In this document: piece after piece, positions 277 to 48,694 of the stretch
Layout of the letters: each line of letters starts with the position of its first letter
Numbering within the stretch: the first letter of the stretch is position 1
DNA from: Streptomyces sp. SLBN-118
GTDB taxonomy: Bacteria > Actinomycetota > Actinomycetes > Streptomycetales > Streptomycetaceae
DNA length: 64,000 nucleotides
Reading direction: 5' to 3'
NCBI RefSeq assembly: GCF_006715635.1
Contig: NZ_VFNP01000002.1
Coordinates: 2,418,001 to 2,482,000, forward strand
Made by a program: the position numbers and the translations under genes
The notes under the pieces: model-generated
The model's input: only the letters and a program-made list of their open reading frames with translations
Databases searched by the model: none
Told to the model about the DNA's origin: nothing

Positions 277-305
277 GGGTGCAGCACTCGTATGCTTCCG
301 ATCAA

Positions 306-570
306 CGCGTTGACGGAGACAAGTAACTGCGGGATCACGCGAGCCGAGAGAGCTGCCGGGAGCTGGAAAGGCAGCCTTGCGTCCCAGGGTGAAGACCCTC
401 CTGAGCGCGGGGAGAAAAGGTCCGATGGACCCAATGCCCCGCCGGTTGGCCCCCGTCATCGGGCATGAATGAGGCCATCGCCTTGTCGCGGTGGCAAAGG
501 CGTGGTGGCACCGCGAGTACCCTTCTCGCCCACGCTCCCAAGGGATCATGACGACGCCCCTGGGAGGGCT
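306..570 (+). promoter_or_regulatory. T-box riboswitch, Asp specifier, probably translational
   Basis: Stem I can be drawn as stacked helices: 306-311 with 404-409, 315-318 with 398-401, about 327-333 with 382-387, 337-343 with 376-382, and 352-357 with 370-375. The internal loop holds AAGTAA on the 5' side (321-326) and GAAGAC on the 3' side. The specifier position is GAC (394-396), an Asp codon. A GAGAGA bulge motif lies at 346-351. The T-box core TGGCACCGCG is at 506-515; its TGGC would pair with a tRNA ending GCCA, and a G discriminator is known for tRNA-Asp and tRNA-Asn. CTCCCA (535-540) can pair with TGGGAG (561-566), which overlaps the ribosome binding site of the downstream ATG at 574. 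Uncharged tRNA-Asp would thus be expected to free the site and switch on translation. The helices are seen in the sequence; the mechanism is inferred from actinobacterial ileS T-boxes. Confidence 0.8.
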
Positions 571-573
571 GCG

Positions 574-1890
574 ATGATCCACACCACTAGCCGCGTATTG
601 GTCTCTGACCTGCGAGAACACGTCGGCAAAACTGTTTCGATCTCTGGCTGGGTGAACGCCCTCCGCCTGCAACGCAAGATGCAGTTCGTCCTCGTGCGGG
701 ACCACACTGGCACTGTCCAGGTGACCCGCAAGCGTGACGATGGGCCGCTGGAGGCCCAGCTCGAAGCCCTGACTCCCGAGTCCGCAGTCAAGATCACCGG
801 CCGTGTCGTCGACGCCGCCCAGGTCAAGCTCGGCGGCCTGGAGATCGTCCCCGATGCGGTCGAGGTCTTGAACCTGGCCGCTACGCCGCTGCCGATCGAC
901 GAGCACACCGGCCTGGAGCAGCGGCTGGACTGGCGCTTCCTGGACGTGCGCCGCCGTCCCGCCACCCAGCTCATGTTCGCCGTACAGACGACCCTGGAGC
1001 AGGGGATGCGCGAGTACGCCTACGCGCAGGGCGCCACGGAGATGCACACCCCCAAGCTCATGGGCACCGCCTCGGAGTCGGGCGCGGAGGTCTTCAAGCT
1101 CGGCTACTTCGACCGCAGCGCCTACCTGGCGCAATCGCCGCAGTTCTACAAGCAGATGGCGATCTCCGCGGGCATCGACAAGGTGTTCGAGATTGGGCCT
1201 GTCTTCCGCGCCGAGCCGTCGTTCACCTCCCGGCACGCCACCGAGTTCACCGGCGTCGACGCAGAGCTCGCCTGGATCGACGGCGTCGAGGACGTGATGG
1301 CGTTCGAGGAACAGATGCTCGCCCACGCCACCGCCAAGGTCGCCGACGCGCACGGTGAGGCGATCCGCGAGCACTTCGGCGTCGAGGTCACCGTCCCCAC
1401 GACGCCCTTCCCTCGCATCACGATGGCCGAGACACACGAGATCCTGCGCAAGGGCGGCTGGGACCCTCAAGGAATCAAGGAGGACTTGGACCCGGAGGGC
1501 GAGCGGAGCATCTCGGCTCACATCAAGGAGGCCACCGGGCACGAGTTCGTGTTCATCACGCACTACCCGGTGAGCATCCGGCCCTTTTACCACATGCGGT
1601 CGGCTGAGGACCCGAGCGTGACCTTGAGCTTCGACCTGCTGTGGAGAGGACTGGAGGTCACCACCGGCGCCCAACGTGAGCACCGGTACGACGTGCTGCT
1701 GAAGCAGGCCGCCGAGAAGGGCATGAGCCCCGAGCCGCTGCAGGACTACCTGAACGCTTTCCGGTACGGCTGCCCGCCGCACGGCGGTCTCGGCATGGGC
1801 CTTGGTCGGGTGCTGATGGTGATGCTCCGCCTGGATTCGATCCGCGAGGCAACCTTCCTCTTCCGCGGGCCGAACCGGCTCACCCCGTAA
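574..1890 (+). CDS. aspS: Aspartyl-tRNA synthetase, archaeal type (aspartate-tRNA(Asp/Asn) ligase)
   Basis: Class IIb aminoacyl-tRNA synthetase of 438 aa, the size of archaeal-type AspRS and much shorter than the roughly 590-aa bacterial enzyme expected as the housekeeping copy. An N-terminal OB-fold anticodon domain (about 20-100) has GWVN where discriminating archaeal enzymes have GWVW, so relaxed tRNA choice (Asp and Asn) is possible. Motif 2 contains FRAEPSFTSRH. The motif 3 region ends LFRGPNRLTP, where FPRDPxRLTP is usual. The ATG at 574 was chosen for the GGGAGGG just upstream; an upstream frame exists but is part of the T-box leader. It is monocistronic and ends at a strong hairpin facing the oxygenase gene. 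An extra, T-box-controlled synthetase is typical of inducible resistance to a synthetase inhibitor. That role is inference. Confidence 0.88.
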   Translation: MIHTTSRVLVSDLREHVGKTVSISGWVNALRLQRKMQFVLVRDHTGTVQVTRKRDDGPLEAQLEALTPESAVKITGRVVDAAQVKLGGLEIVPDAVEVLNLAATPLPIDEHTGLEQRLDWRFLDVRRRPATQLMFAVQTTLEQGMREYAYAQGATEMHTPKLMGTASESGAEVFKLGYFDRSAYLAQSPQFYKQMAISAGIDKVFEIGPVFRAEPSFTSRHATEFTGVDAELAWIDGVEDVMAFEEQMLAHATAKVADAHGEAIREHFGVEVTVPTTPFPRITMAETHEILRKGGWDPQGIKEDLDPEGERSISAHIKEATGHEFVFITHYPVSIRPFYHMRSAEDPSVTLSFDLLWRGLEVTTGAQREHRYDVLLKQAAEKGMSPEPLQDYLNAFRYGCPPHGGLGMGLGRVLMVMLRLDSIREATFLFRGPNRLTP

Positions 1891-2755: not shown

Positions 2756-3661
2756 TCACGTCGGCGCGGAGCACGACGCACTGCGGTCGTCGGAGGTGGC
2801 GGAGGGGTGGCAGATGGCAGCGCAGTCCGGGATCACCCGGTCCTGCGCCGGACCGGTCAGGAACTGTCTGATCGCGGCACGGGGAGCGTGGGCGCTGACT
2901 GACGCCCGGCCGTAGGGACAGCGCCGTATGTGACCGTCGGCGGAAACGTACGCGGACGCCGAGCGGCACGACCATCGCTCGCCCCCGGTCGCGGGGAGCT
3001 GTAGATCCCGCAATTCGTCGAGGTAGGCCCGATACCGGTCGGACAGGTTGAAGTAGCGGCCCAGTGCGTCGGCATCGAGCTGCTGCTGCACCAGATAGTC
3101 CTGGACCGACTTGCCGTCGCGGCGCAGGGCACGCTCGTCGAGGACGACGGGGCTGAACTGGACCTCCACCCCTGCCTCGGACACGAGTTCGGCCAGGTTC
3201 TGGCACTCCCCGTCGCTGAGACTCCAGCAGGTGACGTGCAGAATCTTCGTCTCAGTGCTGATGGCGCGCAGCGTTTCGATTCCCGATGTCGCGGTGCGGG
3301 TGGTGCGGCCCAGCAGCATCGCGCCCTGTGAGTCGGCGGAGACGGTCAGGTTGGCCAGCAGACGCGCCACTCGGGAGAGAGCGATGACCTCGGCCACGGT
3401 ACGGGCTGAGGTCACCATCGACACCGACATGCCGAACTGGTGGGCCAGCCGCACGAGCTGCCGGAGCTGAGGGTGGTGGGTCGGCTCGCCGCCAGTCAGG
3501 CATAAGCCCTCCACGCCTGTCTCCTTCAGCCGCGACAGGGTGCGGGTGTAGGTCGCGGTGTCGAGGAAGCCGTGGGCCCGGTCGGCCCGGAAGCAGAACC
3601 CGCAGGCCACCTTGCAGTGCCCGGCTGTGGAGATCAGCGCCGTACGCACGTGGGTGTTCAT
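2756..3661 (-). CDS. Radical SAM protein
   Basis: A 301-aa radical SAM enzyme. The CxxxCxxC cluster motif is at residues 16, 20 and 23 (GHCKVACGFC) and a GGEP SAM-binding motif is at about 57-60. The C-terminal part has further cysteines (WSC, RRCPYG, DCAAICHP) that could hold auxiliary iron-sulfur clusters. The ATG at 3661 was chosen because it overlaps the TGA of the upstream SPASM gene (ATGA), showing translational coupling; a longer frame upstream lies inside that gene. With the SPASM enzyme and the oxygenase it forms a peptide-modification operon. The substrate is unknown. Confidence 0.85.
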   Translation of the reverse strand: MNTHVRTALISTAGHCKVACGFCFRADRAHGFLDTATYTRTLSRLKETGVEGLCLTGGEPTHHPQLRQLVRLAHQFGMSVSMVTSARTVAEVIALSRVARLLANLTVSADSQGAMLLGRTTRTATSGIETLRAISTETKILHVTCWSLSDGECQNLAELVSEAGVEVQFSPVVLDERALRRDGKSVQDYLVQQQLDADALGRYFNLSDRYRAYLDELRDLQLPATGGERWSCRSASAYVSADGHIRRCPYGRASVSAHAPRAAIRQFLTGPAQDRVIPDCAAICHPSATSDDRSASCSAPT

Positions 3662-4956
3662 TGCACCCCCGTGTTGTCCCACACCGCGATCTCCACAGTG
3701 CTCGTGTAGAAGGTGCACATCTCAGGGTCCGGGGTGCCGCCGATGAGGGCCCGCTCGTTGCGCGACGGCCCGCCGCAGATGGCGAGTGCCGGGCAGTCCC
3801 CGCACTCGGGGATGGGTGCGACCTTCTTCGCCACGCCGGCCAGGAGGCCGGAGTCGGCCCGCAGTTCGTCGAGGGTGTGCAGGAACGACGGCTCGGTGAA
3901 GTTGATGTCGCACAGGCTGACCCGGTTGCCGGGCAGCAGGGCGGCGTTCAGGCTGCGGTCGCCTTGCATATGGTCGAACAGCATCGGCCGCCGGGTATCG
4001 AGGGCCTGGAAAGCGCGGTCCAGGACGGAGAACAGCATCCCGCCCCGCCCCAGGGCGGCCATGCGGGCCTCGTACAGCTCGCGGGCCAGGTCGGCGCCCT
4101 TGACCTGCCAGTGGCCCGCCGTGGGAATGGGCGTGTTGACGTAAATGAACTTCAGCCCGAGGTCATCGATGATCCACCGGACAGTCTCGGCAAGGCGCCC
4201 GATGTTCGCGGCCGTCGGGGTGAGATTGCAGCCCACGTGCAGCCCGTCGGCCTCGACGAACCGGGCGACGTTACGGCGAATCCGGTCGTCCGCGGGCTGC
4301 CCGCCGAGCAGAAGGCGATGGGCGGAGTTGATGCCCGGGGGACCGTCGACTGAGATGCCGACCCCGTACTCGTACGCGACGAAGTGGTCGAGGGCTTCGT
4401 CTGTCAGGCGGGCACCGTTGGTGACTACCGTGCGCCGCACCCTGGCAACGCCATAGCGGTCAGCGAGGGTGTCGGCGAACTGGTCACCGTACTGCATGAG
4501 ATCGAAGCGGATGGTCGGCTCGCCGCCGAACCACTGGATGGACACCTCGTCCTGCCCGGCGTTCTGCTCGAAAAGGAACTCCAGCCCCTCCGAGAGCTCT
4601 TCCTTCGTCATATCCGGCTTGCCGGAGTTGGTGTCGACGAAGCAGTAGGTGCAGGCCATGTTGCAGCGGTCGGTGAGGACCACGCGCAGACCGCTGATAC
4701 GGCACGGGGTGGCGTCGAGGCCGAGGAATCGAAGACGATCACGGAGTGCTTCGCGCCGGTCGGCCACGGGGCCGCCGGGGGTGAAGCCGAGCCCAGCAAG
4801 GGCGTCATGGGTCGCAGTCGGGGGGACCCCGGCGAGGTCGTGGACCTCGCCGGAGTCGATGAACACACTGTCCAAAGCGACCGGGTCGAGGAGAACCGCT
4901 TCCCCGTCCCGCTCGTACTGGAAGTACTTCCCCCACAGCATCCGGGGGGCGGCCAT
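3658..4956 (-). CDS. Radical SAM/SPASM peptide-modifying enzyme
   Basis: A 432-aa protein with a short N-terminal leader-like region, a radical SAM core with cysteines 98, 102 and 105 (CNMACTYC), WFGGEP, and a C-terminal SPASM region (ECGDCPALAICGG and PEMCTFY) expected to bind auxiliary 4Fe-4S clusters. SPASM enzymes of this size usually install crosslinks, epimerisations or thioethers in ribosomally made peptides. It follows the small 119-aa gene by 5 nt and overlaps the second radical SAM gene by 4 nt. The family is clear; the reaction cannot be told from sequence alone. Confidence 0.88.
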   Translation of the reverse strand: MAAPRMLWGKYFQYERDGEAVLLDPVALDSVFIDSGEVHDLAGVPPTATHDALAGLGFTPGGPVADRREALRDRLRFLGLDATPCRISGLRVVLTDRCNMACTYCFVDTNSGKPDMTKEELSEGLEFLFEQNAGQDEVSIQWFGGEPTIRFDLMQYGDQFADTLADRYGVARVRRTVVTNGARLTDEALDHFVAYEYGVGISVDGPPGINSAHRLLLGGQPADDRIRRNVARFVEADGLHVGCNLTPTAANIGRLAETVRWIIDDLGLKFIYVNTPIPTAGHWQVKGADLARELYEARMAALGRGGMLFSVLDRAFQALDTRRPMLFDHMQGDRSLNAALLPGNRVSLCDINFTEPSFLHTLDELRADSGLLAGVAKKVAPIPECGDCPALAICGGPSRNERALIGGTPDPEMCTFYTSTVEIAVWDNTGVQ

Positions 4957-4961
4957 GGTGG

Positions 4962-5321
4962 TCAGGCCGCCGTTTCCTCTTCGGCGATCCCGAGCTCGCT
5001 CATGACCGCGCGGACCCTCTCCTCGGCGGAGGCCTGGAGCTTCCCCGATGTGGCGGGAGAGCCACCGTCGGCGAGGACGATGACACCGGGCAGCGTCGGG
5101 TTCGGCGCGATGACCGTAATGCCGGCCGGGTCGGTACCGATGACCAGGATCGCATCCTTCAACTCGACCCAGTCGGTCCGCTCCTTGAGCGCCTCGATGA
5201 TGCGGCCCTGCTTCTCCTGGAAGGAGGCGCGCTCACCCATCCACACGCCCGCCTTGGACTTGGAGTCCACGACGTCCGCGTAGATCAAGTGATCCTTCTT
5301 GTCTCGCCTGGCTTGGGGCAT
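4962..5321 (-). CDS. Small protein, candidate RiPP precursor or recognition partner
   Basis: A 119-aa, charged, cysteine-free protein starting MPQARRDKKDH and ending in an acidic EEETAA tail, with a Gly/Pro/Thr-rich middle (VIGTDPAGITVIAPNP). The ATG at 5321 has a perfect GGAGG 8 nt upstream, better than the longer start at 5357. It is the first gene of the leftward operon, directly ahead of the SPASM enzyme, which is where a precursor or leader-recognition protein normally sits. I recognise no family, so the precursor role rests on position and size only. Confidence 0.6.
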   Translation of the reverse strand: MPQARRDKKDHLIYADVVDSKSKAGVWMGERASFQEKQGRIIEALKERTDWVELKDAILVIGTDPAGITVIAPNPTLPGVIVLADGGSPATSGKLQASAEERVRAVMSELGIAEEETAA

Positions 5322-7785: not shown

Positions 7786-8601
7786 CTAGGCCAACGCCCA
7801 ATCAGGCCGCGGGCCAAAGGCACGTCGGCATCGAGGATGTGAGATCGGCCATTCCGCCGCTTCTTCAACCGTCCGGAGAGTCCTCGCAGCCTTGTCCGGG
7901 TCCTGGTGAGAGGTCCAGCCGCAGTCGAAGCCGTCGAAGACCTCCACCACGCTGAAGCCGGCCTGGCGGGTCCGGTTGAGCGTTCCCGCGTTGTAGGCGA
8001 CGGCCGACTTGGTGAGCGTGGCGGCCTCGGCCCACGCGCGGACCGGAACCCGGGCGCCGTTGCGGTAGATGACATGAGTCAGCTTGTGGCTGGCGGCGAG
8101 CCTGTAGGCCAAGTTCTTCACGGCCTGCTTCGCCGTCTTGTTGCCCGCGGCGAGCAGCGGAACTTCTCGGCGTGCGGCTTCCCTTGCTGCTCGGTAGAAC
8201 TGGTTCGCCATCCGCTCGGCTTCCTGAGAACGGCGCAGGAAGTCTGCGTACGAGTCGGAGGCGAGCAGCTGGAGGGCGTCGCGGTGGAATGTGGTCCAGG
8301 TGAAGGTCACCCCCAGGGCCTCGGCGGCGGCACGTCCGCCTTCCTCGTACAGGTGAGGCAGCTGCCGCTGGACGAATTGCTGGGCCTCCTGGTCGACACG
8401 TCGGCGGAAGGCCCGGATCGCCTGCTTGAACTCCTCCAGCGTCACAAGGGTGTGTGGCGTCCTTGGATTGTCCGCAAACCGGGCAATGACGGCGCGCTGT
8501 TTGTCAGCTAGACGCTGCCACGCTTCCTCGAGTACCGCCGCAACCCGGCGAGCGACCTCGTCCGGGTCGCCAGGCACCAGCGGTGGCCATTCGTACGGCA
8601 T
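7786..8601 (-). CDS. Phage minor capsid protein, MuF / SPP1 gp7-like
   Basis: A 271-aa protein. The long helical N-terminal part ends in the typical C-terminal motif of phage head morphogenesis proteins: CGWTSHQDPDKA, then SHPRCRRAFGPRPD. Such proteins sit at the portal inside the head and may be ejected with DNA. It is the last head gene of the leftward operon, 6 nt after the preceding gene, and looks full length. The usual next genes (head-tail connectors, tail) are absent: the next gene to the left is a HAD hydrolase. Confidence 0.8.
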   Translation of the reverse strand: MPYEWPPLVPGDPDEVARRVAAVLEEAWQRLADKQRAVIARFADNPRTPHTLVTLEEFKQAIRAFRRRVDQEAQQFVQRQLPHLYEEGGRAAAEALGVTFTWTTFHRDALQLLASDSYADFLRRSQEAERMANQFYRAAREAARREVPLLAAGNKTAKQAVKNLAYRLAASHKLTHVIYRNGARVPVRAWAEAATLTKSAVAYNAGTLNRTRQAGFSVVEVFDGFDCGWTSHQDPDKAARTLRTVEEAAEWPISHPRCRRAFGPRPDWALA

Positions 8602-9324: not shown

Positions 9325-9325
<1 letters not shown>

Positions 9326-10380
9326 CAGATCACCTTCGCCACGATGTGGGCGTCCGGTGTGTGCAGCACCGGCATGCCGACCGCCGCACCCTTGGTCCAG
9401 ATCTGCACCGGGTCATCCTGAGCACCTCGCGTGATGATGATGCCCGGACGGTCCTCCTTTATGATCTCCGGGTTCGTGCCGCGTGAGAGGGCCAGGCCCT
9501 CAGCGGTCACGCCGAAGATGGTCTGTCCCCACTTCGTACGGTCCGGCGGCAGCATGATCCACCGGTCCTCCGGCAGCACCTTCGTCTGCACGCCGTCGAC
9601 TCGCACCTGCCCCTTGTAGAAGGTGACCGGCGGCAGGCCGTAGTTGTCGCGCACCACGTTGATCTGCTGCGGGGTCAGCGTCGCGGTCGGCGTGTTCGAC
9701 GGGTTCACACTGCCGTAGTAGGCCGCCCGGTAGGCGTTGTTGGCAGCCAAGAAGCTGAACGCCTTCCGGCTGGTGAGCACCATGTCCGGGGCCGGAGCGC
9801 CCCGGTCATCGAGGTACTGAATCCACGCCAGCTCGTCCTTGATCGGGTCCGAGGTGGGGTCCGACCACAGCTTGGGCGCGGTCGGCATGTTGCCCGCCGG
9901 CACGCCCCAGTCGACTTCAATCGTCAGCCCGTTCTCCGCGTTCAGGGAGAACTTGCCGTCAGTGAGGACGTCGCCCCAGGCGAGTTCGACGCGAGAACGG
10001 ATGGCCTCGACATGCCGCTCGGTGTCGTCGTACAGCAGCTCGATGAGCCGGTCCTCGTCCGCACCGCGAGACGCCTCCAGCAGGATCTGCTCCTGCTCGC
10101 CGACCAGGAGCTTCTGGCCGAGCGGCGGCAGCATGCCCTCGCGGGTGGTCTGCCACGCCTCGCGGCTGGCGAACGGCACCGAAGCGTCGAACGCCCGGTA
10201 CTTGGCGACGTTGACGTACCGGCCGTTGTCCCGGATGCGCCACTTCACCTCGTCCTGCTCCAGCGTCGGGATGATCCCGCCGTCCTGGGTGAGCAGGTGA
10301 TCCTTCTGCGAGGGGATGGCGCGGGCAAAGGTCGTCAGGTCGTGGGCGCTGACGTTCTTGATCAGGTCCTGGATAGTCAT
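9325..10380 (-). CDS. Phage major capsid protein (lambda gpE-like family)
   Basis: A 351-aa protein starting MTIQDLIKNVSAHDL. Length, neighbours and features such as the RSRVELAWGDVL segment, the PAPDMVLTSRKAF segment and a C-terminal beta-rich region match the HK97-fold major capsid proteins annotated as 'capsid protein E'. The gene for a lambda gpD-type decoration protein lies just upstream, as in lambda-like heads. The ATG at 10380 follows a purine-rich GAGGGG. Confidence 0.85.
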
Positions 10381-14013: not shown

Positions 14014-14847
14014 TCAGAGATGGCAGACGGAGCAGCCGGCTTCGTCGTCGTCGGAGTCGAGCGCGTCCGAAAGGACTTCCAGGAGGGGCCGGTTGGGCTT
14101 GATGCGCTTGGCCGCGCGCTCAAGGGCTGCCTGATGCTTGGCCTCGATCTCGTCCTTGCGCTCTATGAGCTCTGGGAGCGACTCGCCCTGCGACCAGGTG
14201 TAGTTGCGGCCTTTCATGGCGGTGTGTCGGTATCGGACCTTGTCCTCATACTCCACGGCCTTGGCGTACAGGTCGGGGTGGCGTTCCTTGAGGCCGACCC
14301 ACTCGTGCTTGCGCTGGAAGAAGCAGAAGTAGCATCCCGAGCGAGTGCGCCACTCGTAGTAGCCGGGCAGGCCGATGCCTGCCTCGTCGAGGATGCGCAT
14401 GACGCCTTCCTTATCGATGCCTTCCTCTCGGAAAGGAAAGACGGCATCGATGTTCGGCTTGGTGCTGACGTAGCCGATGCGGTTCTCGTCCGCCCGGATG
14501 GCGACATAGGAGATGACCTTGTCGTCGCCAACCCAGTCTTCCAGGGGCTTGATCTTGAGGTTCTTGGTGCACCAGCGCATCTGAGGGCTGGGCAGGGTGC
14601 CCTGGTAGACCTCCATCCAGTGGTCGAAGTCGCGGTCGGCGTTCAGTCGCACGATGGACTTGCCGAGGGCGGCCTCAAGCCGGTTGAGGTACTCGTACGT
14701 TTCCGGGAGTTCGGCACCGGTGTCGCAGAAGAAGTACTCCATCTCCGGGACTCGGTTGCGCATGTAGACGGCGAGAGCTGAGGAGTCCTTGCCGCCGGAG
14801 ATACCGAGAACGTGCCGGACCTTCTGGGTGTCGGCTCCATCGGTCAT
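14014..14847 (-). CDS. sspD: DNA phosphorothioation ATP-pyrophosphatase SspD (PAPS reductase family)
   Basis: A 277-aa PP-loop protein of the PAPS reductase/DndC family. SGGKDS is at residues 17-22, which binds ATP. Cysteines in WCTK and CYFC and a C-terminal CSVCHL could bind a cluster or relay sulfur. It overlaps sspC by 4 nt and is the last gene of a four-gene leftward operon. In SspABCD systems this enzyme activates the DNA backbone for sulfur insertion on one strand. Assignment rests on the PP-loop plus the neighbouring DUF4007 and large ATPase genes. Confidence 0.85.
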   Translation of the reverse strand: MTDGADTQKVRHVLGISGGKDSSALAVYMRNRVPEMEYFFCDTGAELPETYEYLNRLEAALGKSIVRLNADRDFDHWMEVYQGTLPSPQMRWCTKNLKIKPLEDWVGDDKVISYVAIRADENRIGYVSTKPNIDAVFPFREEGIDKEGVMRILDEAGIGLPGYYEWRTRSGCYFCFFQRKHEWVGLKERHPDLYAKAVEYEDKVRYRHTAMKGRNYTWSQGESLPELIERKDEIEAKHQAALERAAKRIKPNRPLLEVLSDALDSDDDEAGCSVCHL

Positions 14848-17800
14848 CCCTGTGCCTTCCTTTCACTCGCCGCTGTCGCGGCATCGGTCACGCGCTGGGC
14901 GAGGGCCGCGAGCAGGATCCTCGCTCCGTCCGGCCCGAGAGCCTTCTCGGCCTGCTTCAGGACGTCGGCCGCGAGGCTGCTTGCCTCGCTGCGGGCCTGT
15001 TCCGGCACGTAGATCAGGGTGCGTTGTTCCACGCCGGCGCTGTCAGTCAAGGTCAACAACTGAGCGTCGAGTTTCTCTTCCCGGCCGCGAACCTCCTTCC
15101 CGGCGTGGTGCAGGTGCCCGACTCGGTCAAGGGCCGCAGCCATCGACCGGGCCTTCTGCGGGAAGACCTCGGCTTCGTGGTCGTCCCAGTCACCGAGGGC
15201 GGAGTTGGTCAGGCGCACGACGATGGGCTCGAGCCAGTCGTCGTCCTCAAGGCTGTCACTGAGGACGAAGTCGACAAAGCCGCGTAGTTCCGGAGTCAGC
15301 ACCGCGCCGGCGAAGCCGCGCAGCCGGGCAGCGAGCTGTGCGCGCAGTTCTGGCAGTTCGGCCGGCAGGCGGAACTCCTGTGCGAGGACGCTGATTACTT
15401 CGGCCCGCAGCTTGCTGTCGATGGCCACGAGTTCGTCGGCCGCCGCGGTGAGACGTTCAACGTGGATGTTCGCCGCTTCCGCATTGGCGCGGGTGCGGGC
15501 CGGGATCTCGGGCAAGCCGAGCGCCTTCGGCAGCGCATGGAAGATCAGATCGTCGGGATCCAGGGCTCCGACGATCGTGGTGCGTACGGTGCGGGCGTCG
15601 GCGGAGATGTTCTTGGTGGTGCGGGCATACTTGTGCAGGTCGGCCACACGCACGATCAGGGCGCTGGCTACGGAGAGGAGGTCGGGGTTGCGCAGGGCCT
15701 TGGAGCGCGGTGCCTCCACGCCGAGCGAGACCATCAGCTTCTTGATGATGCTGCCGCGCTGCCCGTCTCCGGCCGGCGTGTACTTCACCGAGAAGCGTGC
15801 CGGGCCCTTGACGAGTCGCTCGACCACGTCGATGGTCAGCCGGGGCAGGTAGGTGCCTTCCTCGAACAGGGCGATGTCGTGGCGGCGGATGACCAGGGCG
15901 GGGATCAGGAAGACCGGGACCACGCCGGCCTTGAGACCGAACGGCGGGCTCATCAGGACACGGATGACCTCCTCGATACTGACCCGCTCGGTGGCACTGG
16001 TCAGGACCTCGTTGAGGGCGTTCCAGGCGGGCTGGGCGTGCTCGTGGCCCTCGCCGGGCGGGGAGAAGCCGTACGGGAGCAGGCTCTCTTGCTGGCTCTC
16101 GGCCTGAGCCACCCCGTTCTCGCGGTGCAGGCCGAGGTAGGCCAGAACGCCGCTGTACATGGCACGTTCGGCCTTGTAACCGCCGCCAAAGCCAAGGTTC
16201 TCCTCCCCCGAGGAGGAGAGCATGGCCGTCAGCAGTATGCCGCGCGCCTGAGCGGCCTGGCTGGTGAGGACGTGCCGACCGAGCATCTCGTTGCGGATGT
16301 GCGGGGTGTGCGGGTACACCGACTCGCAGGCGAGGGAGACCAGGCCGCTCAGGCTGCGGGCCGTCAGGCCGGAGGCGGCGGGTTCTTCGCCGGGGGCGAT
16401 CCCGGTGTGCCACAGGCTCCAGGACGCTTCGGAGGACGGCGGGTAGAAGGCGTACTGCAGCAGCTCCAGCAGCTCGGCCTCGGCCTGCACGAGCCGCTCG
16501 ATGACTTCCCGCCGGGCGACGTGGTCGATGTCCTGCTGGTTGCTGAGTTCCTTCAGCGCAACGAGGTAGGTGGCCGTGGTCAGCACCACGTCGGGGTGGG
16601 GGGTGGTGCCGATGAGCACCGGCAGGGGCGAGTGGACATCGGGCCGGTCAGCGTCGGTACCGAGGTGAAAGACAACAAGGCCGTCAGCAGGCTCCTTCAG
16701 CTCGTCCGGGGCGGCGACAGACTTGGTCTCCGGGCCGCTGACCGCGGTGTAGAACACGCGCATCATGCCGGTGACCTGGCTGTGGCGGCCCGCCACGAAT
16801 GCCTGCGGGACGAGGCTGCCGAGCCGGTTGATGACCGAGGCGTCATCGAAGCGGCTGATAATTTCCTTGAGCCGGCCGTCGATGTCGACGTCCGTGCCCT
16901 GCCAGACCCGGTATTCACCGCTGAACTCACGGTGGACCACAAAGCCCCGACGGACAAGGTCGGCGAGCCGCTCTTCGAGAGCCTGGAAGGCATCGGAGTC
17001 AGCGACGTCCGTGGGGTCGTGAAGCGCGAAGTGAATCATCGGCGCGGTGGCGCTGAGCGCCCCGTCGGAATCGATCAGGTTGAGGACACCGATGGTCTTC
17101 AGCACGTCCTGGTCGGCATCCGGGAGACCGTTGGCATCCCGGATGCGCGAGTCGACCTCGATCCACCGGCTCGCGTTGGCGGAGGCGAGCAAGGTCGTGC
17201 GCCCGGAGTTGAGGAAGTAGTCGTACAGCTGCGGCAGTCGCACCGTGCTGGCGTGCTCCGCCTTCTGGGTGCTGTGCCGAGACAGCGAGTGGCGGATGGT
17301 GTTGGGCTCCCCGCTGTTGAGGAAGCCCGACAGGCTGCGGTCGTGCTGGCCGATCTGAGCGGCAAGAATCGGCGCGGCCAACGCCGTGATCGGGTGCAGC
17401 GGGTAGAGGTCCGCGAAGTGGTCGGGGCCGAGTTCAGCCAGAACGCCGAGCCCGTGCTGCGTCCAGATGTCCGCGGATGCCTCGGCTGACGCGGTGATGA
17501 GAGCCTGCCCCGCCGAGTTGACGGCCGAGCGGTCGAGGCGGCGGCGCAGCAGGTGCAGGGAATCGCCGTGGTGGGGGACGAAGGTGATGTCTTCGAAACG
17601 CCCCTGGATCTTGGCCCATTCGCGGGTCTTGAGTTCGCTGGACCGTGAGGCGTAGTCCATGAACGACAGGTGCTGCAAGGTCATCAGGTAGACGGGCAGC
17701 CCGTTGGGGCCAGCCGCCCTCTCGGCGAGTTCCTGCAGCAGGAACAGGTCATGCTGGGCGTCGGCGAACTCGTTGTGACCGGCGAGGTGTTCCAGCGTCT

Positions 17801-18422
17801 TGCCGAACTCGTCGATGACGAGGAGCAGAGGCTGACCGTCGGCGGTCAAAGCCGTGACGGCGCCGAGAATCTCCTTGGCCCCGGCGCGCTCTGGGTCGGC
17901 GCACGCCGCCAGGGCGGCGGCGATGGTCTTCGGGACACGTTTGCCCCAGCGTCGCGCCGCCGCGGTGTGCAGGGCACGGGCGAGGGTGGCGACGACGGAT
18001 TCGCGGCGCGCGGTGGCCACGCCGCCGAGGAATCCCTCGGGGGCGATGGCGTCGCGTGCTGTGGCAAGGCGCTGGGCGAGGGCGGGGCTGGCCTCTTCGA
18101 GGATGCGCTCGGCCTCGCCGCGCCGCTTGGCATCCCGCCCCAGCAGAGCGTCGATGATGTTGGACAGGGTGGATTTGCCGGAGCCGTAGGGGCCGGTGAA
18201 TGACCAGGCACGGGTGCGGCGTTGGTCGGCCAGGGCGCTCGTGATGCGCTCCATAACATCGACGGCCCGGGCGCCGACGTAGGGGTCGTGCAGGGCGTCC
18301 TCGACATCGCGCTCAAGGTTGGTCGAGCGCATCTGGGAGCCGACAAGTTCGATGCCGACGGGGAACTGCGGGGCGGAGCTCGCCGGGCTGCTCGGGGTCC
18401 GCGCGGGGGTTGCGGTGGTCAC
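14844..18422 (-). CDS. sspC: DNA phosphorothioation ATPase SspC
   Basis: A 1192-aa P-loop ATPase. Walker A is GPYGSGKST at about 77-85 and Walker B is LLLVIDEFG at about 199-207, followed by a long helical body without recognisable motifs. It overlaps both neighbours by 4 nt, so sspB, sspC and sspD are translationally coupled. Known SspC proteins are large ATPases in the single-strand phosphorothioation complex. The related BREX BrxC family also has this layout, but no pglZ, brxL or other BREX gene is present. Confidence 0.8.
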   Translation of the reverse strand: MTTATPARTPSSPASSAPQFPVGIELVGSQMRSTNLERDVEDALHDPYVGARAVDVMERITSALADQRRTRAWSFTGPYGSGKSTLSNIIDALLGRDAKRRGEAERILEEASPALAQRLATARDAIAPEGFLGGVATARRESVVATLARALHTAAARRWGKRVPKTIAAALAACADPERAGAKEILGAVTALTADGQPLLLVIDEFGKTLEHLAGHNEFADAQHDLFLLQELAERAAGPNGLPVYLMTLQHLSFMDYASRSSELKTREWAKIQGRFEDITFVPHHGDSLHLLRRRLDRSAVNSAGQALITASAEASADIWTQHGLGVLAELGPDHFADLYPLHPITALAAPILAAQIGQHDRSLSGFLNSGEPNTIRHSLSRHSTQKAEHASTVRLPQLYDYFLNSGRTTLLASANASRWIEVDSRIRDANGLPDADQDVLKTIGVLNLIDSDGALSATAPMIHFALHDPTDVADSDAFQALEERLADLVRRGFVVHREFSGEYRVWQGTDVDIDGRLKEIISRFDDASVINRLGSLVPQAFVAGRHSQVTGMMRVFYTAVSGPETKSVAAPDELKEPADGLVVFHLGTDADRPDVHSPLPVLIGTTPHPDVVLTTATYLVALKELSNQQDIDHVARREVIERLVQAEAELLELLQYAFYPPSSEASWSLWHTGIAPGEEPAASGLTARSLSGLVSLACESVYPHTPHIRNEMLGRHVLTSQAAQARGILLTAMLSSSGEENLGFGGGYKAERAMYSGVLAYLGLHRENGVAQAESQQESLLPYGFSPPGEGHEHAQPAWNALNEVLTSATERVSIEEVIRVLMSPPFGLKAGVVPVFLIPALVIRRHDIALFEEGTYLPRLTIDVVERLVKGPARFSVKYTPAGDGQRGSIIKKLMVSLGVEAPRSKALRNPDLLSVASALIVRVADLHKYARTTKNISADARTVRTTIVGALDPDDLIFHALPKALGLPEIPARTRANAEAANIHVERLTAAADELVAIDSKLRAEVISVLAQEFRLPAELPELRAQLAARLRGFAGAVLTPELRGFVDFVLSDSLEDDDWLEPIVVRLTNSALGDWDDHEAEVFPQKARSMAAALDRVGHLHHAGKEVRGREEKLDAQLLTLTDSAGVEQRTLIYVPEQARSEASSLAADVLKQAEKALGPDGARILLAALAQRVTDAATAASERKAQG

Positions 18423-19522
18423 GCGGTCTCCTCAGCAAAGAGCATCTCGGTGGTGTCGGTGGCGTCCGTGGCCTTGGTGGTGAGTTCCTTCTGCTCTGCC
18501 TTGGTGAGCTTGGGGAACTTGGCGGCCCACTCTTCACGGGTGGGGAAGCCCGGACGGCGGGTGACGAAGTCGTACTGCTCGTCGAGCACTTCCCAGGCCA
18601 GATCGAAGGGGTCGGCCGTGAAAGCGAGGCTGCGCTGTCCCACGGCCTCGGTCAGGTTGAGCTGCTGGTGGTCCGCAGTGACCTTCTGCAGCGCATTGAC
18701 GATCTCGTTCTCCCTGACGCGGAAGGCGCGCCCCGGGGAGCCCGGTTCGTTGGCGAGGCGGGCCACGGAGATCGAGTTGGCCTGGCGGGAGAACTTGGCG
18801 GCGTAGTCGAGGCAGGCATAGGCCAGGACCCGGGCAGGCAGTGAGGTGCGGTGCCCGCTGGTGAACTGCCACTCGGGCTTGCCGCGCGTTCCTACGAAGG
18901 TGAGCAGGTCAAGGTCACGGAAGGGGCAGGCGAGCAGGTCCTCGTAGCTGCCCGGCGAGCCGGCCTTCTCCGGGGCGCTGCGCGCATACATCTTGGTGAT
19001 GCAGTCGATGTCCCGGACGATCGACGCCTCTTCCGGACTCTTGTCGTAGGAGAAGTTCACATGCCGGGTGACCACCTGCGTCATGTCTGCGGTCGTAAAA
19101 CGGGAGAACGGAGCCAGGTGGAAGGCCGTGTACCAGGCCGGCGCGTGACTCTTGGCTCCGGGGCGGGAAGAGACCAGCCACCAGTGCAGCAGCCACAGGC
19201 TGCCCGTCTCCTCCAGATACGGGTCCGCACCGTCCTCGTCCAGAAGCCAGCGGGCTTCCCAGGTGGGATAGGAGAACTTGGCCTGTGTGCCCTTCGAAGG
19301 CGAGTGCTCGCGGGTCAGCTTGAACGCACGTGACCAGTAGCGCATGGCGTTGACCATGTTTTTGCCCACACCGAGCAACACCGGCGCGTCGGCCGCGAGG
19401 AACGCACCCTGGTCGCTTTTGACCTGCATGTACGCCTTGTGCAGCCAGCCGAAGCGGGGCGCGAAAGTTTCGTGTCGCGCGAAGGCAAAAAGGGCGGCTT
19501 CCCCAAGCCGGCTGTCTGACAT
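18419..19522 (-). CDS. sspB: DNA phosphorothioation protein SspB (DUF4007)
   Basis: A 367-aa protein that opens with the DUF4007 signature: FARHETFAPRFGWLHKAY, then DAPVLLGVGKNMVNAMRYW. DUF4007 is, to my knowledge, the defining domain of SspB, a DNA-nicking component of SspABCD. The ATG at 19522 was chosen because homology begins right after it and AGAGG precedes it; the longer frame upstream runs into the convergent shadow of sspA. It is 58 nt after sspA and overlaps sspC by 4 nt. Confidence 0.85.
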   Translation of the reverse strand: MSDSRLGEAALFAFARHETFAPRFGWLHKAYMQVKSDQGAFLAADAPVLLGVGKNMVNAMRYWSRAFKLTREHSPSKGTQAKFSYPTWEARWLLDEDGADPYLEETGSLWLLHWWLVSSRPGAKSHAPAWYTAFHLAPFSRFTTADMTQVVTRHVNFSYDKSPEEASIVRDIDCITKMYARSAPEKAGSPGSYEDLLACPFRDLDLLTFVGTRGKPEWQFTSGHRTSLPARVLAYACLDYAAKFSRQANSISVARLANEPGSPGRAFRVRENEIVNALQKVTADHQQLNLTEAVGQRSLAFTADPFDLAWEVLDEQYDFVTRRPGFPTREEWAAKFPKLTKAEQKELTTKATDATDTTEMLFAEETA

Positions 19523-19580
19523 CTGGGACCTCTCTGTGTCCAATGCGATTGCTCTAACGAGGTGGCAAACGAGGTAACGG

Positions 19581-20759
19581 TCAGCGGGGACCGTCGGCTT
19601 CGGCCAGCGCGGCACGAACTTGCGCCACGGCGCGTTTGACGGCCTGCGCGGCGTACTCGATCTCGGCATCCGTGGTGGCGTAGCCCAGCGAGAAGCGGAT
19701 CGTGCTGTCGGCGTCCGCCCGGGACAAACCCATCGCCAGGAGCACGTGGCTCGGCGTCGGAGCGCCGGATGCACACGCGCTGCCCTCCGAAGCGGCGACG
19801 TCGGGCATGGCCGCCAGGAGCGCGTCCGCCGGCACTCCAGGGAAGGTGAAGCTCGTCACGCCCGGCAGGCGCTGATCGCGCCGACCGTTGATACGGCATT
19901 CGGGCAGGGCGCCGGTCACCAGGTGTTCGAGGCGGTCACGCAGGGCGGCGACCCGTTCAGCCTCCTCGCCGAGACCGCGCGACGCGGCCTCGGCCGCCGC
20001 CCCCATGCCGATGATCCCTGCCACGTTCAATGTGCCCGCGCGCCAGCCCCGCTCCTGTCCGCCACCCACGAGGAGCGGACGGTGCGGGAGTGGGGTCCCA
20101 CGCCGTACATACAGCGCGCCGACTCCCTGCGGTCCGCCGAACTTGTGGGCGGACAGCGACAAGAGGTCGACGTCGAATTCCGCGACGTCCGCGGGCAAGC
20201 GGCCGATGATCTGCGTGGCGTCCGTGTGGAGGAGCGCGCCGGCTTCACGGGCCGTCTTGGCCGCGACGCGGAGGTTAGTGAGGACCCCGGTCTCGTTGTT
20301 CGCCGCCATCAGGGAGACCACTCCCCCAGGACGCGCGGCGAGGACCTGATCGAGAGCGTCGAGATCCACCAGGCCGTCGCCGCCGACCGGCAGGAGCGCA
20401 AGATCTTCAGGACTCTCGGCGGTGACCGCGCGAGCCGTCTCCAGGACAGCCGGATGCTCAACAGGGCTTGTGACGAGGGGCTTTCCAGCGGTGAACGCTG
20501 CCCGGAGAGCCAGGTTGTTCGCTTCGGTCGCCCCGGAGGTGAAGATGATCTCGCCGGGCGAGCAGCCGAGAAGGTCGGCTACCTGCCGACGGGCGACGTC
20601 GACCCGATGAGCCGCCTGCCGCCCCGGGGGGTGCATGCTTGAGGCGTTGCCGACCGACTGCATGGCCTCGACGACGGCCGCGAGGGCCTCGGGCCGGATC
20701 GGAGCGGTGGCGTTGTAGTCAAAATAGGACGTATCCGACCCATTCGGCCCGTTCGTCAT
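19581..20759 (-). CDS. sspA: Cysteine desulfurase SspA (DndA/IscS-like)
   Basis: A 392-aa PLP-dependent class V aminotransferase-fold enzyme. N-terminal SYFDYNATAP, HPAVLET, the PLP lysine in SAHKFGGPQGVG, a WRAGTLN segment and the catalytic cysteine in SEGSACASG are all present. It provides persulfide sulfur. As first gene of the ssp operon it would feed SspD. The ATG at 20759 (MTNGPNGSD) fits family N-termini; a longer start at 20834 is possible. The general IscS fold alone would not prove a phosphorothioation role; the operon does. Confidence 0.85.
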   Translation of the reverse strand: MTNGPNGSDTSYFDYNATAPIRPEALAAVVEAMQSVGNASSMHPPGRQAAHRVDVARRQVADLLGCSPGEIIFTSGATEANNLALRAAFTAGKPLVTSPVEHPAVLETARAVTAESPEDLALLPVGGDGLVDLDALDQVLAARPGGVVSLMAANNETGVLTNLRVAAKTAREAGALLHTDATQIIGRLPADVAEFDVDLLSLSAHKFGGPQGVGALYVRRGTPLPHRPLLVGGGQERGWRAGTLNVAGIIGMGAAAEAASRGLGEEAERVAALRDRLEHLVTGALPECRINGRRDQRLPGVTSFTFPGVPADALLAAMPDVAASEGSACASGAPTPSHVLLAMGLSRADADSTIRFSLGYATTDAEIEYAAQAVKRAVAQVRAALAEADGPR

Positions 20760-21209
20760 CTGCCACCCCGCCTCGCTCGTGTCGCACACCAATGTACTGC
20801 TGGTGGAAACCTTCTCCCGCATCCGGGGTTCCACCAGGAGCTCGCGGTGATCCTAGCCGCGAGCCGAGATCCACTCTTTGAATCACCCGAACGCGGGGTG
20901 TCGCAAGCCGCTTGCCGAACGAATGTTCTATGGCGCGCGCCTTACGCGCAATCCACATGCGGCAAGAGCCGTTCCTCGGCCGGGCAGACGGGCAGCGGTG
21001 TGGCCAAATGCCGTCCCTGGCTGGGCTATTCGCCTGATGGTGCTCCTGTTGTCAGTGGTCCCGATTAGGGTGGTCCGCACGCTTCATCGTCGCAGTAACT
21101 GGACGCTGAGCGCTGCTTGTTGTGCGTCGAGCTGGGGGAGGAACTTCACGATGATGGTCGGTCCGAGCGGCTCACGGCTCGTCGTCAGCCGCATCGGTCA
21201 GGTGAAGCT
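20760..21209. other. Divergent promoter region of the defence island
   Basis: 450 nt between the leftward sspABCD operon and the rightward helicase operon. No supported gene. Both operons must start here, so shared regulation is likely, but I could not place clear -10/-35 elements. Confidence 0.5.
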
Positions 21210-30008: not shown

Positions 30009-31820
30009 CTACCCAAGAGGGACCTGCGGAATGTCGCTTGCGGCTTCCGGCAGACCGAGGTATTGGCGCACCGCAGCGTTGTCACCAGTTGCGTCGGCAA
30101 GCCGGGCGGCAGCGTCGAAAGCCCGCGCTTGAATGCGCTCGATCTCTGCCTGCACATCGTCGATCGGGTAGCCCACGTCGACGAGCATCCGGATGCCGGT
30201 CTCGACGGACAGCACACCGGCCCCGACGCCCTTTACGACCTCGTCGAGGACTGCGGCGCGGTCAGTCGGGGTGTGCGGGCCCCACATGAGGTGTGCGCGC
30301 ACAGACTCCCCAGTGAGCCAGCCCTCAGCCTGCCCTGCCTGGTGGAGCCGCTGCACCATCCGCAGCAGGACAGCGTACTTGTGCCTGCGAGCCAGACGCA
30401 TGGCCGCGACCAGCGAATCCAGAGGGCCAAGCGCGAGTTGCAGCGCGTACCCAGACGGCAGCGCGGTCGGGTCGAGGGTGCCAAGCCCAGCGGCGGTGAG
30501 GCGAGAGTTCGCTGCGATGCGGTCGAGTACGTGGTCGACCCGGGCCCGCAGTTCGGCGAGTTGCGCCGATGTGTCGAGGACGTCCATACGACCGTTGTCG
30601 TTGAGCTGCCAGACGGTCCCCGCCCGAACCTTGACTGGTAGCGGCTGGCCGGTGGCGCGGTCGATGGGCAGGCGAGCCCCTGCCAGGCCGATGATTGGGG
30701 AGCCGGTGGTGGCCGAGGCGCCGGAGCTGTCGGTGTCGGTGGCGGACAGCTCGTCGAGGGCCTGGAGGACGGTGGCCACGGTGGGTTTGCCCCAGTGCTC
30801 TCCGCTGGCGGGGATGCTGTTGGTGACGTGGACGAGGGGAATGAAGTCCACCATCAGGTCGAGGCGGTCCAGGACTTCTCCGTCCGAACGGACACGGTAG
30901 GTGGCCTTGTGCATCGGCAGGTCGTACAGCAGGTCGGCGTGCTTGAGGTCGTCCAGCTCCCATTCCGCGTCGGTGAGGTAGCACGTCCACGGCGTCGGCC
31001 GACTCGGCGCCCACGGGTAGGTCCGCGTGATGACACGCGTGTCGGCGTTGAGCGCGTCGCCCTTGACGAGGATCGGTTGGCCGTCGTCGGCGTACAGATA
31101 CTCGCGCGCGGGACTGCCGTCCTTCGCCATGCCGCTCCGACTGGCCGGACCGATCGGGCCGAGCTCGTAGGTGACCCGCCGAAGCCTCGCCTTCAGGCCG
31201 CGCCGCTTGTCCTCCGGCAGCTCCCAGGCCAGGTGCACACGCAGCGGGAACTCCGCCCCATCTTGCTCACCGTCCTCCGGCCACTCCGGGAAGTACAAGC
31301 CCGGGTCCCACGTGCGCAGCAGGACGCGGCCCTTCCCCGGGTCCCAGGCCAGGGTGTAGACGGCGTCACCCAGGAGGATCGCGGTGCGCTCGGCCTGCTG
31401 GATGCGCAGGGGCAGCAGCTCCTTCTCCGCCCATGCCCGCAGCTTGTCCTGCACGGCCAGCGCCGCGGCTGCCTCGGAGGTCGGCTCGTCGTCGGCGTGC
31501 TCTGCGCCCGCGACGCTGATGGTCTGCTCGGAGCCGAGGAGGTAGCCGAGCGCGGTGTCGACCAGCTTGGAGGCGTCGCCGAGTTCCCTCCGTTCAGTTC
31601 CCGCATCGTCGTCCCCGGTTATCGCGGCGACCTGGCCGGCCTGGTTGGAGTCGTACGCGGCCAGGAGCCGGTAGGCGGCAAGACGCCGCAGGTCCTCGTC
31701 GGGCACCCACGATGAGGTCAGCTCCGCCCACGCGTTTCGGCCCGGTCGGCGCGGGTCGGCCATGGCTGGCTTGTAGTCCAGCCAGCTCCAGACGTCGGTG
31801 ATCAGCTCGCGCAGGCCCAC
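30009..31820 (-). CDS. Phage portal protein
   Basis: A 603-aa protein typical in length and layout of SPP1 gp6-type portals: N-terminal clip/wing region, WDPGLYFPEWPED, VHVTNSIPASGEHWGKP, then a long helical stem and crown part (LRARVDHVLDRIAANSRLT). It starts at a GTG (31820) with GGAGGGG. It follows terL after a lipoprotein gene. In most phages scaffold and capsid genes come next; here about 18 kb of defence cargo does. Confidence 0.85.
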   Translation of the reverse strand: MGLRELITDVWSWLDYKPAMADPRRPGRNAWAELTSSWVPDEDLRRLAAYRLLAAYDSNQAGQVAAITGDDDAGTERRELGDASKLVDTALGYLLGSEQTISVAGAEHADDEPTSEAAAALAVQDKLRAWAEKELLPLRIQQAERTAILLGDAVYTLAWDPGKGRVLLRTWDPGLYFPEWPEDGEQDGAEFPLRVHLAWELPEDKRRGLKARLRRVTYELGPIGPASRSGMAKDGSPAREYLYADDGQPILVKGDALNADTRVITRTYPWAPSRPTPWTCYLTDAEWELDDLKHADLLYDLPMHKATYRVRSDGEVLDRLDLMVDFIPLVHVTNSIPASGEHWGKPTVATVLQALDELSATDTDSSGASATTGSPIIGLAGARLPIDRATGQPLPVKVRAGTVWQLNDNGRMDVLDTSAQLAELRARVDHVLDRIAANSRLTAAGLGTLDPTALPSGYALQLALGPLDSLVAAMRLARRHKYAVLLRMVQRLHQAGQAEGWLTGESVRAHLMWGPHTPTDRAAVLDEVVKGVGAGVLSVETGIRMLVDVGYPIDDVQAEIERIQARAFDAAARLADATGDNAAVRQYLGLPEAASDIPQVPLG

Positions 31821-46810: not shown

Positions 46811-46907
46811 ACGGCATCATGGGCGAAGATCTACAGCAACCAACACGGGACGTTCACAGCGTCGGGGCGGGTCGTGCTCCGAATCTGTGGATCTGAGGGG
46901 AGATGGG

Positions 46908-48537: not shown

Positions 48538-48620
48538 CGGCGGGCCGCCAAGGTCCTGGCCGTACTCGATCCAACCAGCAAAGATGCTGGTCAGATCGCT
48601 TCTCCACGCGTAGCGCGTTG

Positions 48621-48694
48621 TGGGGCGGGTGGGACTCGAACCCACGGCCGACGGATTATGAGTCCGCTGCTCTAACCGGCTGAGCTACCGCCCC
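48621..48694 (-). tRNA. tRNA with CAT anticodon (Ile2 or elongator Met); likely attB
   Basis: A 74-nt cloverleaf on the minus strand: acceptor GGGGCGG/CCGCCCC, discriminator A, anticodon CAT (48660-48658) in an ACTCATAATC loop, T-arm GGTTCGAGTCC. The loop resembles tRNA-Ile2 (lysidine type), but Met cannot be excluded by eye. Its 3' end faces the integrase gene, so it is the probable integration target, restored by the element. Confidence 0.85.

Follow-up and report, generated by a model that had tools for sequence, protein, structure and literature searches.

Genes and features at the locus

The window, i.e., the whole stretch of 64,000 nucleotides analyzed here, carries a leader at positions 301–573, which is followed by a gene for a second aspartyl-tRNA synthetase (aspS2, encoding AspRS2). 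A cassette of radical SAM and cupin-like protein genes lies convergent to aspS2. Judged from its sequence, the leader is a T-box. The features are collected in Table 1, where A1 denotes the alignment described below in one row and, in the antisequestrator row, a helix.

Table 1. Features of the T-box locus and its surroundings (window positions)
Feature	Position	Strand	Basis or remark
Candidate −10 hexamer, TATGCT	291–296	+	Weak, picked by eye; TATCCT or TATTCT in many relatives at this place
T-box leader, full RF00230 match	301–536	+	83.4 bits, E 1.1e-18
Long Stem I with AGAGAG (347–352) and GCTGGAA distal loop	307–408	+	Covariance-model match, RNAalifold, covariation
Specifier GAC (Asp), followed by C397 and not the usual purine	394–396	+	GAC in 64/64 rows of alignment A1
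Stem II	409–440	+	Helices 7 and 8; column pair 122–140: AU 24, GC 22, GU 11
Stem IIA/B pseudoknot with CCGUCA	443–464	+	Helices 9 and 10; mostly invariant
Stem III	474–495	+	Helix 11; each of the 7 pairs has a two-sided change in one or more rows
Antisequestrator: A1 (499–505/530–536) and A2 (513–517/525–529)	499–536	+	Helices 12 and 13
T-box bulge UGGC, matching the complementary GCCA end of tRNA-Asp (discriminator G)	506–509	+	
CCCTT, apical loop of A2	520–524	+	Complementary to 540–544
AAGGG, candidate pseudoknot partner of 520–524	540–544	+	Last two G also open the RBS hairpin
RBS hairpin H2: outer stem 543–548/575–580, inner stem 556–559/566–569	543–580	+	Helices 14–16; covers SD (562–568) and ATG (574–576)
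Second, archaeal-type (non-discriminating) aspartate–tRNA ligase, aspS2	574–1890	+	NF003483, 476.6 bits (cut-off 353); TIGR00458, 384.9 bits (368.4)
Cupin/JmjC-like protein	1949–2731	−	No Pfam hit of its own; some relatives so named; PF13621 in 2/78
Radical SAM protein	2756–3718	−	PF04055
Second radical SAM protein (SPASM-like)	3658–4956	−	Beside T-box aspS in 31/64 loci
Conserved small protein of 119 aa, unassigned as precursor or carrier	4962–5321	−	46 relatives: unnamed, hypothetical or uncharacterized
att core inside tRNA-Met	48620–48665	−	One of five genome copies

The closest solved structures to AspRS2 are 3nel, 1b8a, and 1n9w; in its best segment, the protein has 30% identity with the bacterial-type AspRS of the host. 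A single bacterial-type aspS (608.9 bits) and a GatB are present in the host genome, and no AsnRS over the cut-off was found there. AspRSs with 55% identity to that of the window occur on Rhizobium leguminosarum plasmids (L162 and L163), with transposase genes nearby.

The 3′ end of a tRNA-Met gene (48620–48694) is found in five copies in the genome, all in a single orientation and with 46–47 identical bases. The last interval between these att repeats (C2:2381590–2466622) includes the window up to 48.6 kb. The phage genes in the window encode an integrase (46887–48494), a terminase (32337–33875), a portal protein (30009–31820), and head proteins (9325–10380 and 7786–8601); the genes of a tape measure protein and a minor tail protein lie upstream of the window, and the T-box/aspS2 locus is situated between the head and tail genes. 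The mobile element suspected from the sequence in the initial annotation is thus a prophage, flanked by att repeats of the tRNA-Met 3′ end. These repeats form a nested array of five att sites (G000:C2:2347902–2466645), which contains one 85-kb prophage interval and three shorter ones. Within the prophage, positions 14014–20834 carry genes for a PAPS-reductase-like protein, a large ATPase-like protein (below the Pfam cut-off), and a class-V aminotransferase, a set which we take to resemble that of DNA phosphorothioation.

Two close relatives of the locus also adjoin phage genes. One is found in a congener (G182), where the T-box and aspS2 (93%) adjoin homologous tail genes. Another is the IMG/VR contig L164, where both (aspS2 at 91%) lie beside homologous portal and head genes; in the 17 kb analyzed there, the tail proteins compared had no homologue. 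The similarity begins at window position 261 for G182 and at 288 for L164, i.e., at about the promoter. Homologues of the terminase, portal, head, and tape proteins were absent from 80 relatives, with flanks of no more than 6 kb covered in either direction, and the locus is not tied to this phage elsewhere. One aspS2 copy (L161; 81% identical) resides on a 790-kb linear Streptomyces plasmid; its leader, located just before aspS at position 10001, is recognizable, with the core TGGCAGCGCG, in which AGC replaces ACC. A phage origin of aspS2 itself was rejected: phage records are at most 38% identical among the best 10 of 16, and all 16 are under 60%.

Structure of the leader

When positions 200–700 (501 bases) were searched with cmscan, the T-box model RF00230 was the sole match, and it was matched from end to end (model positions 1–219 of 219). 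Stem I, the GAC specifier, Stem II, Stem IIA/B, Stem III, the antisequestrator, and the TGGCACCGCG core (506–515) are all present. The proposal that this leader is a T-box with a full Stem I, a GAC specifier, and the T-box core therefore stands, and GAC occupies the specifier position of a highly significant Infernal match, even though its score is lower than the Rfam gathering score of 93. The whole-window Rfam scan at the gathering score returned three tRNAs only and no T-box, because the score of the leader is under this curated value. The T-box of the ileS gene in the same genome (L082) is likewise below 93, with 53.0 bits. Moreover, when 19 further divergent leaders were compared with RF00230 at E 0.01, 8 matched (34–68 bits) and 11 did not. 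These values indicate that GC-rich actinobacterial leaders fare poorly with this model and its cut-off.

The folding energy of the leader taken singly is only mildly better than those of shuffled sequences (z = −1.87; 5 of 200 shuffles were equally good), so that the case is carried by comparison and not by energy. A sigma-70 consensus scan gave no match to back the candidate −10 hexamer.

Comparison among aspS2 relatives

Among the 303 aspS2 relatives found, 80 were analyzed. The motif GGNACCGCG occurs within 700 bases upstream in 64 of them and is missing in 16; since the exact motif misses changed cores, the latter are to be read as loci without the motif within 700 bases. Alignment A1 (64 rows, 319 columns) is composed of the window and 63 of the 64 motif-bearing loci. 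The omitted one, L043, carries before its aspS a leader in which Stem I and the specifier have been naturally lost and the 3′ half of the T-box is kept.

RNAalifold recovered most of the T-box stems from this alignment unaided. In the named structure, 98.9% of the 4077 cells pair, and 24 of the 65 pairs change on both sides, while shuffles gave a mean of 9.5 (none of the 500 was as high) and slid structures gave 4–10. The strongest covarying pairs are those of the antisequestrator, Stem II, and Stem III; in the antisequestrator, pair 215–250 is UA in 38 rows and CG in 25, pair 213–252 is AU in 38 and GC in 16, and pair 217–248 is CG in 47 and UA in 11. As for the RBS hairpin, the outer stem GGATCA/TGATCC never varies and is thus uninformative by itself; the inner stem covaries (276–291: UA 41, CG 21). 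It had been expected that homologous leaders would conserve the paired positions, the GAC, and the TGGC bulge. The first two are conserved; however, the last base of the bulge varies (UGGT in 21 of the 64 rows and UGGA in 4).

Specifier and tRNA-Asp

GAC occupies the specifier position throughout alignment A1, and it was also found in 19 further leaders that precede aspS relatives of other genomes, the genes being identified by tblastn. On the same scaffold, the triplet is UCC in all 11 leaders of serS genes; for seven of these, the SerRS identity was checked with TIGR00414 at the place (for three of the seven also directly), and for the other four by the N-terminal sequence alone. This exchange of GAC for UCC along with that of aspS for serS provides the strongest support for reading the triplet as the specifier. 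Two tRNA-Asp genes were found in the host, both with the anticodon GUC and the discriminator G, complementary to GAC and UGGC, respectively. Asp specificity, likewise proposed at first, is thus supported by the aspS leaders, the serS leaders, and the host tRNAs alike.

Two features depart from the standard pattern. One is the base following the specifier, which is C in 56 rows and A in the remaining 8, whereas a conserved purine has been described at this place (PMC7583486). Another is the variable base of the bulge: covariation between it and the discriminator was sought across the relatives and not found, since leaders with UGGU or UGGA coexist with G73: all 20 tRNA-Asp copies from ten genomes have G73, and the leaders carry UGGT or UGGA in seven of these genomes. 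UGGA, which mismatches G73, is confined to L036, L038, L039, and L077 among the aligned leaders. In these four loci, two T-boxes (at about 3085 and 5934) were observed in one island, a serS-like gene (TCC, UGGC) being located 2.8 kb upstream of aspS2 (GAC, UGGA).

Nine aspS leaders (L103, L105, L106, L108–L110, L112, L113, and L116) gave no specifier match, and no long Stem I was recognized in them; in L116, GGAG-CA-GAC-A-CTCC can be found by eye. Among the loci L090–L137 (n = 48), the motif pattern failed to parse L095, L097, L098, L102, L114, L115, L117, L122, and L134, and for L111 and L121 no gene was assigned to the leader.

Relationship between the T-box and the ribosome binding site

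A simple consensus scan found no terminator-like site in 180–620. From this result and the conserved RBS hairpin, we infer a translational mode of control. In the hairpin, GGATCA (543–548) pairs with TGATCC (575–580), the inner stem is GCCC/GGGC, and the ATG (574–576) lies in the 3′ arm. The initial annotation let the leader end in a hairpin that hides the ribosome binding site. A conserved hairpin over the SD and ATG is indeed present; however, six bases separate it from the end of the antisequestrator, and both structures form in the minimum-energy fold of the window leader. Because they share no bases, the hairpin alone is not a textbook exclusive sequestrator, and the switching step seems not to be the simple one first assumed.

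Two forms of coupling deserve consideration. The first, to which we give somewhat less than an even chance, is that the leader is a real Asp T-box coupled to the RBS by a pseudoknot: the A2 loop CCCTT would pair with AAGGG when helix A1 is open, and the tRNA would act on the RBS hairpin through the AAGGG strand, with no strand exchange and with control that is either normal or reversed. Between the A2 loop and the downstream strand, at least four contiguous pairs are possible in 99 of 100 leaders (mean 5.07, as against 3.53 in shuffled sequences), while the ileS leader of the same genome has only two. Loops and strands that are changed and yet complementary were found in L079 (CCCTG/CAGGG), L099 (GTTCCCG/CGGGGAT), L113 (TGGCCC/GGGCCG), and also L105, and 13 distant leaders have 65 loop pairs in total as compared with 43.9 after shuffling (0/2000). 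Furthermore, once helix A1 has formed, a stretch of about 12 pairs would be left for about 3 bases to bridge; the loop/AAGGG pairing and helix A1 should therefore exclude each other. In alignment A1, this pairing has one compensatory change (in L079). Nevertheless, segments swapped between distant loci still give 4.42 pairs versus 5.0, which means that much of the signal comes from the invariant CCC/GGG (98 of 100 leaders). Taken singly, just 30 of the 100 leaders reach p ≤ 0.05, and these figures are counts of complementarity and not pseudoknot energies. The pairing of the A2 loop with AAGGG may therefore be the coupling link, as a lead and not as proof.

The second form of coupling, which we hold more tentatively, is the textbook strand exchange, in which CTCC at the end of helix A1 pairs with the SD sequence GGAG in the OFF state (H1) and the RBS hairpin H2 is secondary. 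The pairing of the SD with the 3′ arm of helix A1 was evaluated in an OFF model from which the 5′ strand of this helix was removed, and the values cover the leaders named here. The value is 1.0 for the ileS leader of the same genome and 0.99–1.0 for seven distant aspS leaders (L100, L103, L105, L106, L108, L109, and L110), and L057 (0.94) and L036 (0.80) are also high. Four other distant leaders gave just 0.71 (L099), 0.56 (L116), 0.39 (L104), and 0.27 (L107). L080 gave 0.37, and the window leader 0.31. The lowest values were found in ten leaders: 0.13 (L092), 0.06 (L031), 0.05 (L079), 0.03 (L045), and 0 (L001, L064, L096, L125, L128, and L131). Thus, several distant relatives show strand exchange of the textbook kind, which is weak or missing among many of the closer ones. 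For the window leader, the H1 fold has −31.8 kcal/mol, as compared with −35.0 kcal/mol for the antisequestrator plus H2, which leaves strand exchange within reach. Enforcing helix A1 raises the unpaired fraction of the SD only slightly (0.58, versus 0.39 with its 5′ strand removed) and changes that of the AUG in the wrong direction (0.06 versus 0.33), which weighs against the predicted freeing of the RBS by the antisequestrator. Evidence against strand exchange comes from alignment A1, where pair 252–288 reads U-A in 48 rows and C-A in the other 16, and no H1 pair changes on both sides; H1 as a conserved sequestrator is accordingly unsupported in the aligned leaders.

The direction of control would follow that of the T-box family, by analogy, and the reversed logic, in which uncharged tRNA turns the gene off, is not favored.

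Two further explanations dispense with a working T-box in the window. That the leader is a decayed T-box without switching, leaving aspS2 constitutive or silent, is improbable: decay does occur in the family, as seen from the loss of Stem I and the specifier in L043, the UGGA of four loci, and the AGC for ACC in L161, but the window copy retains its T-box elements, and purifying covariation is seen across the set. Less credible still is a conserved 5′-UTR controlled by a protein or peptide, with a leader peptide encoded by the ATG frame at 548–577 (ATG ACG ACG CCC CTG GGA GGG CTG CGA TGA; nine codons plus stop, overlapping the aspS start), because this ATG is missing in L057, L059, L060, L064, L079, and L080 and shifted in L036-type loci, where the T-box parts persist. 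A conserved leader peptide was thus rejected.

Distribution of the T-box and of synthetase copies

At E 0.01, R1, a model of the 3′ domain of the T-box, had matches in 51 of the 200 family genomes and in 28 of the 394 class genomes, with serS leaders included and the weakest matches counted; within the genus of the window, the occurrence is patchy. An Asp T-box in this phylum had been regarded as unusual. This holds insofar as ileS dominates the known actinobacterial T-boxes, but with R1 matches in 51 of the 200 family genomes it is less odd than was supposed.

All 23 genomes checked, out of the 76 matched by R1, have a bacterial-type aspS. Seven genomes with serS T-boxes have two or three serS copies each, while the window's genome has one. 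These counts suggest that the T-boxes mostly serve spare synthetases. In G128 and G305 (L112 and L113), a T-box without a recognized long Stem I was observed before the housekeeping bacterial-type aspS.

Ten aspS2 relatives lacking the T-box motif (L066, L068, L069, L071–L076, and L078) share a short leader of another kind. It has a hairpin with the 7-nt loop CCGUCUA, whose middle GUC equals the anticodon of tRNA-Asp (GUU, the Asn anticodon, in L076), and a second hairpin, GGCGCG-AnCAA-CGCGCC, which precedes the SD. This short leader may be a mimic of the anticodon arm for autoregulation; only one compensatory pair was found in the nine sequences folded.

The radical SAM/cupin cassette is convergent to aspS2 in 31 of the 64 T-box loci and in none of the 16 motif-less ones (the second radical SAM gene was counted, and several loci end at contig ends). 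The relatives of the cupin-like protein are mostly unnamed among the matches listed. Upstream of aspS2, 13 loci share an amino acid permease, and 15 share a protein of 322 aa.

Discussion

Taken together, the leader is very probably a T-box riboswitch by which the translation of aspS2, a back-up AspRS, is controlled in response to uncharged tRNA-Asp. In the predicted mechanism, uncharged tRNA-Asp would accumulate as the signal whenever aspartate runs low for the housekeeping AspRS or this enzyme is inhibited. Its anticodon would then bind Stem I and its GCCA end the UGGC bulge, the antisequestrator would form, the RBS would be freed, and AspRS2 would be made. The coupling step might be either a swap of CTCC in the 3′ arm of helix A1 to the SD, as in the distant relatives, or the pairing of the A2 loop with AAGGG.

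Regarding its role, the gene neighborhood by itself suggests an inducible back-up or self-resistance AspRS: because roughly half of the T-box relatives have aspS2 convergent to the cassette, the gene most likely serves for inducible self-protection or for rescue from a block of AspRS. A wider conjecture, which we consider rather doubtful, is that the leader belongs to an Actinomycetes T-box subclass mainly for spare synthetases (aspS2 with GAC and serS2 with UCC), coupled through a pseudoknot, carried on prophages, and accompanied by a radical SAM/cupin cassette with AspRS as its product or target; the spare enzyme would thus be turned on by a block of AspRS. One scaffold reads Asp or Ser according to the downstream gene, mostly an extra copy, and as such would sense blocked charging and point to hidden synthetase inhibitors. 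The conserved cassette is a concrete place to seek an AspRS-directed natural product.

Comparison with known systems

T-boxes of ileS are reported for Actinobacteria (PMC1262725, PMC2494555), and translational ones were described by Seliverstov 2005 (PMC1262725) and by Sherwood 2015 as cited in PMC7583486. The window leader shares with them the T-box core, the lack of a terminator, the RBS hairpin, and the actinobacterial host, and differs from them in its GAC specifier, its second-copy gene, and an RBS hairpin that does not overlap the antisequestrator. The ileS T-box of the same genome (L082) has AUC at the specifier place of the alignment, and its gene matches TIGR00392 over the available part. 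According to the section of PMC7583486 on this subject, most translational T-boxes are without the elbow motif of Stem I; the window leader, in contrast, has a long Stem I with this motif. GAC and UCC specifiers are present in a T-box collection, the relevant part of which does not give the host phylum (PMC7778990). Searches of the open-license literature yielded no publication about a Streptomyces T-box for Asp or Ser; such leaders may be listed in TBDB.

The AspRS T-box of Clostridium acetobutylicum and the window leader are alike in that each is a T-box on an extra AspRS. The clostridial switch reportedly reads Asn/Glu codons and acts with GatCAB, whereas the window has a single GAC and a lone aspS2. 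In C. acetobutylicum, the T-box precedes the operon of a non-discriminating AspRS (Saad 2012, 2013, cited in PMC4206432), and one of three aspS genes is T-box controlled (PMC2494555).

The auxiliary synthetases of Streptomyces offer another parallel, that of a spare synthetase under a tRNA-charging signal. These antibiotic-resistant enzymes, for example a second TrpRS, are under attenuation and are linked to the drug. A candidate attenuator has been described before trpS2 of S. avermitilis (PMC1262725). Their control is ribosome-mediated attenuation, whereas direct binding of tRNA is predicted for the leader of the window, where the link to a drug is a guess.
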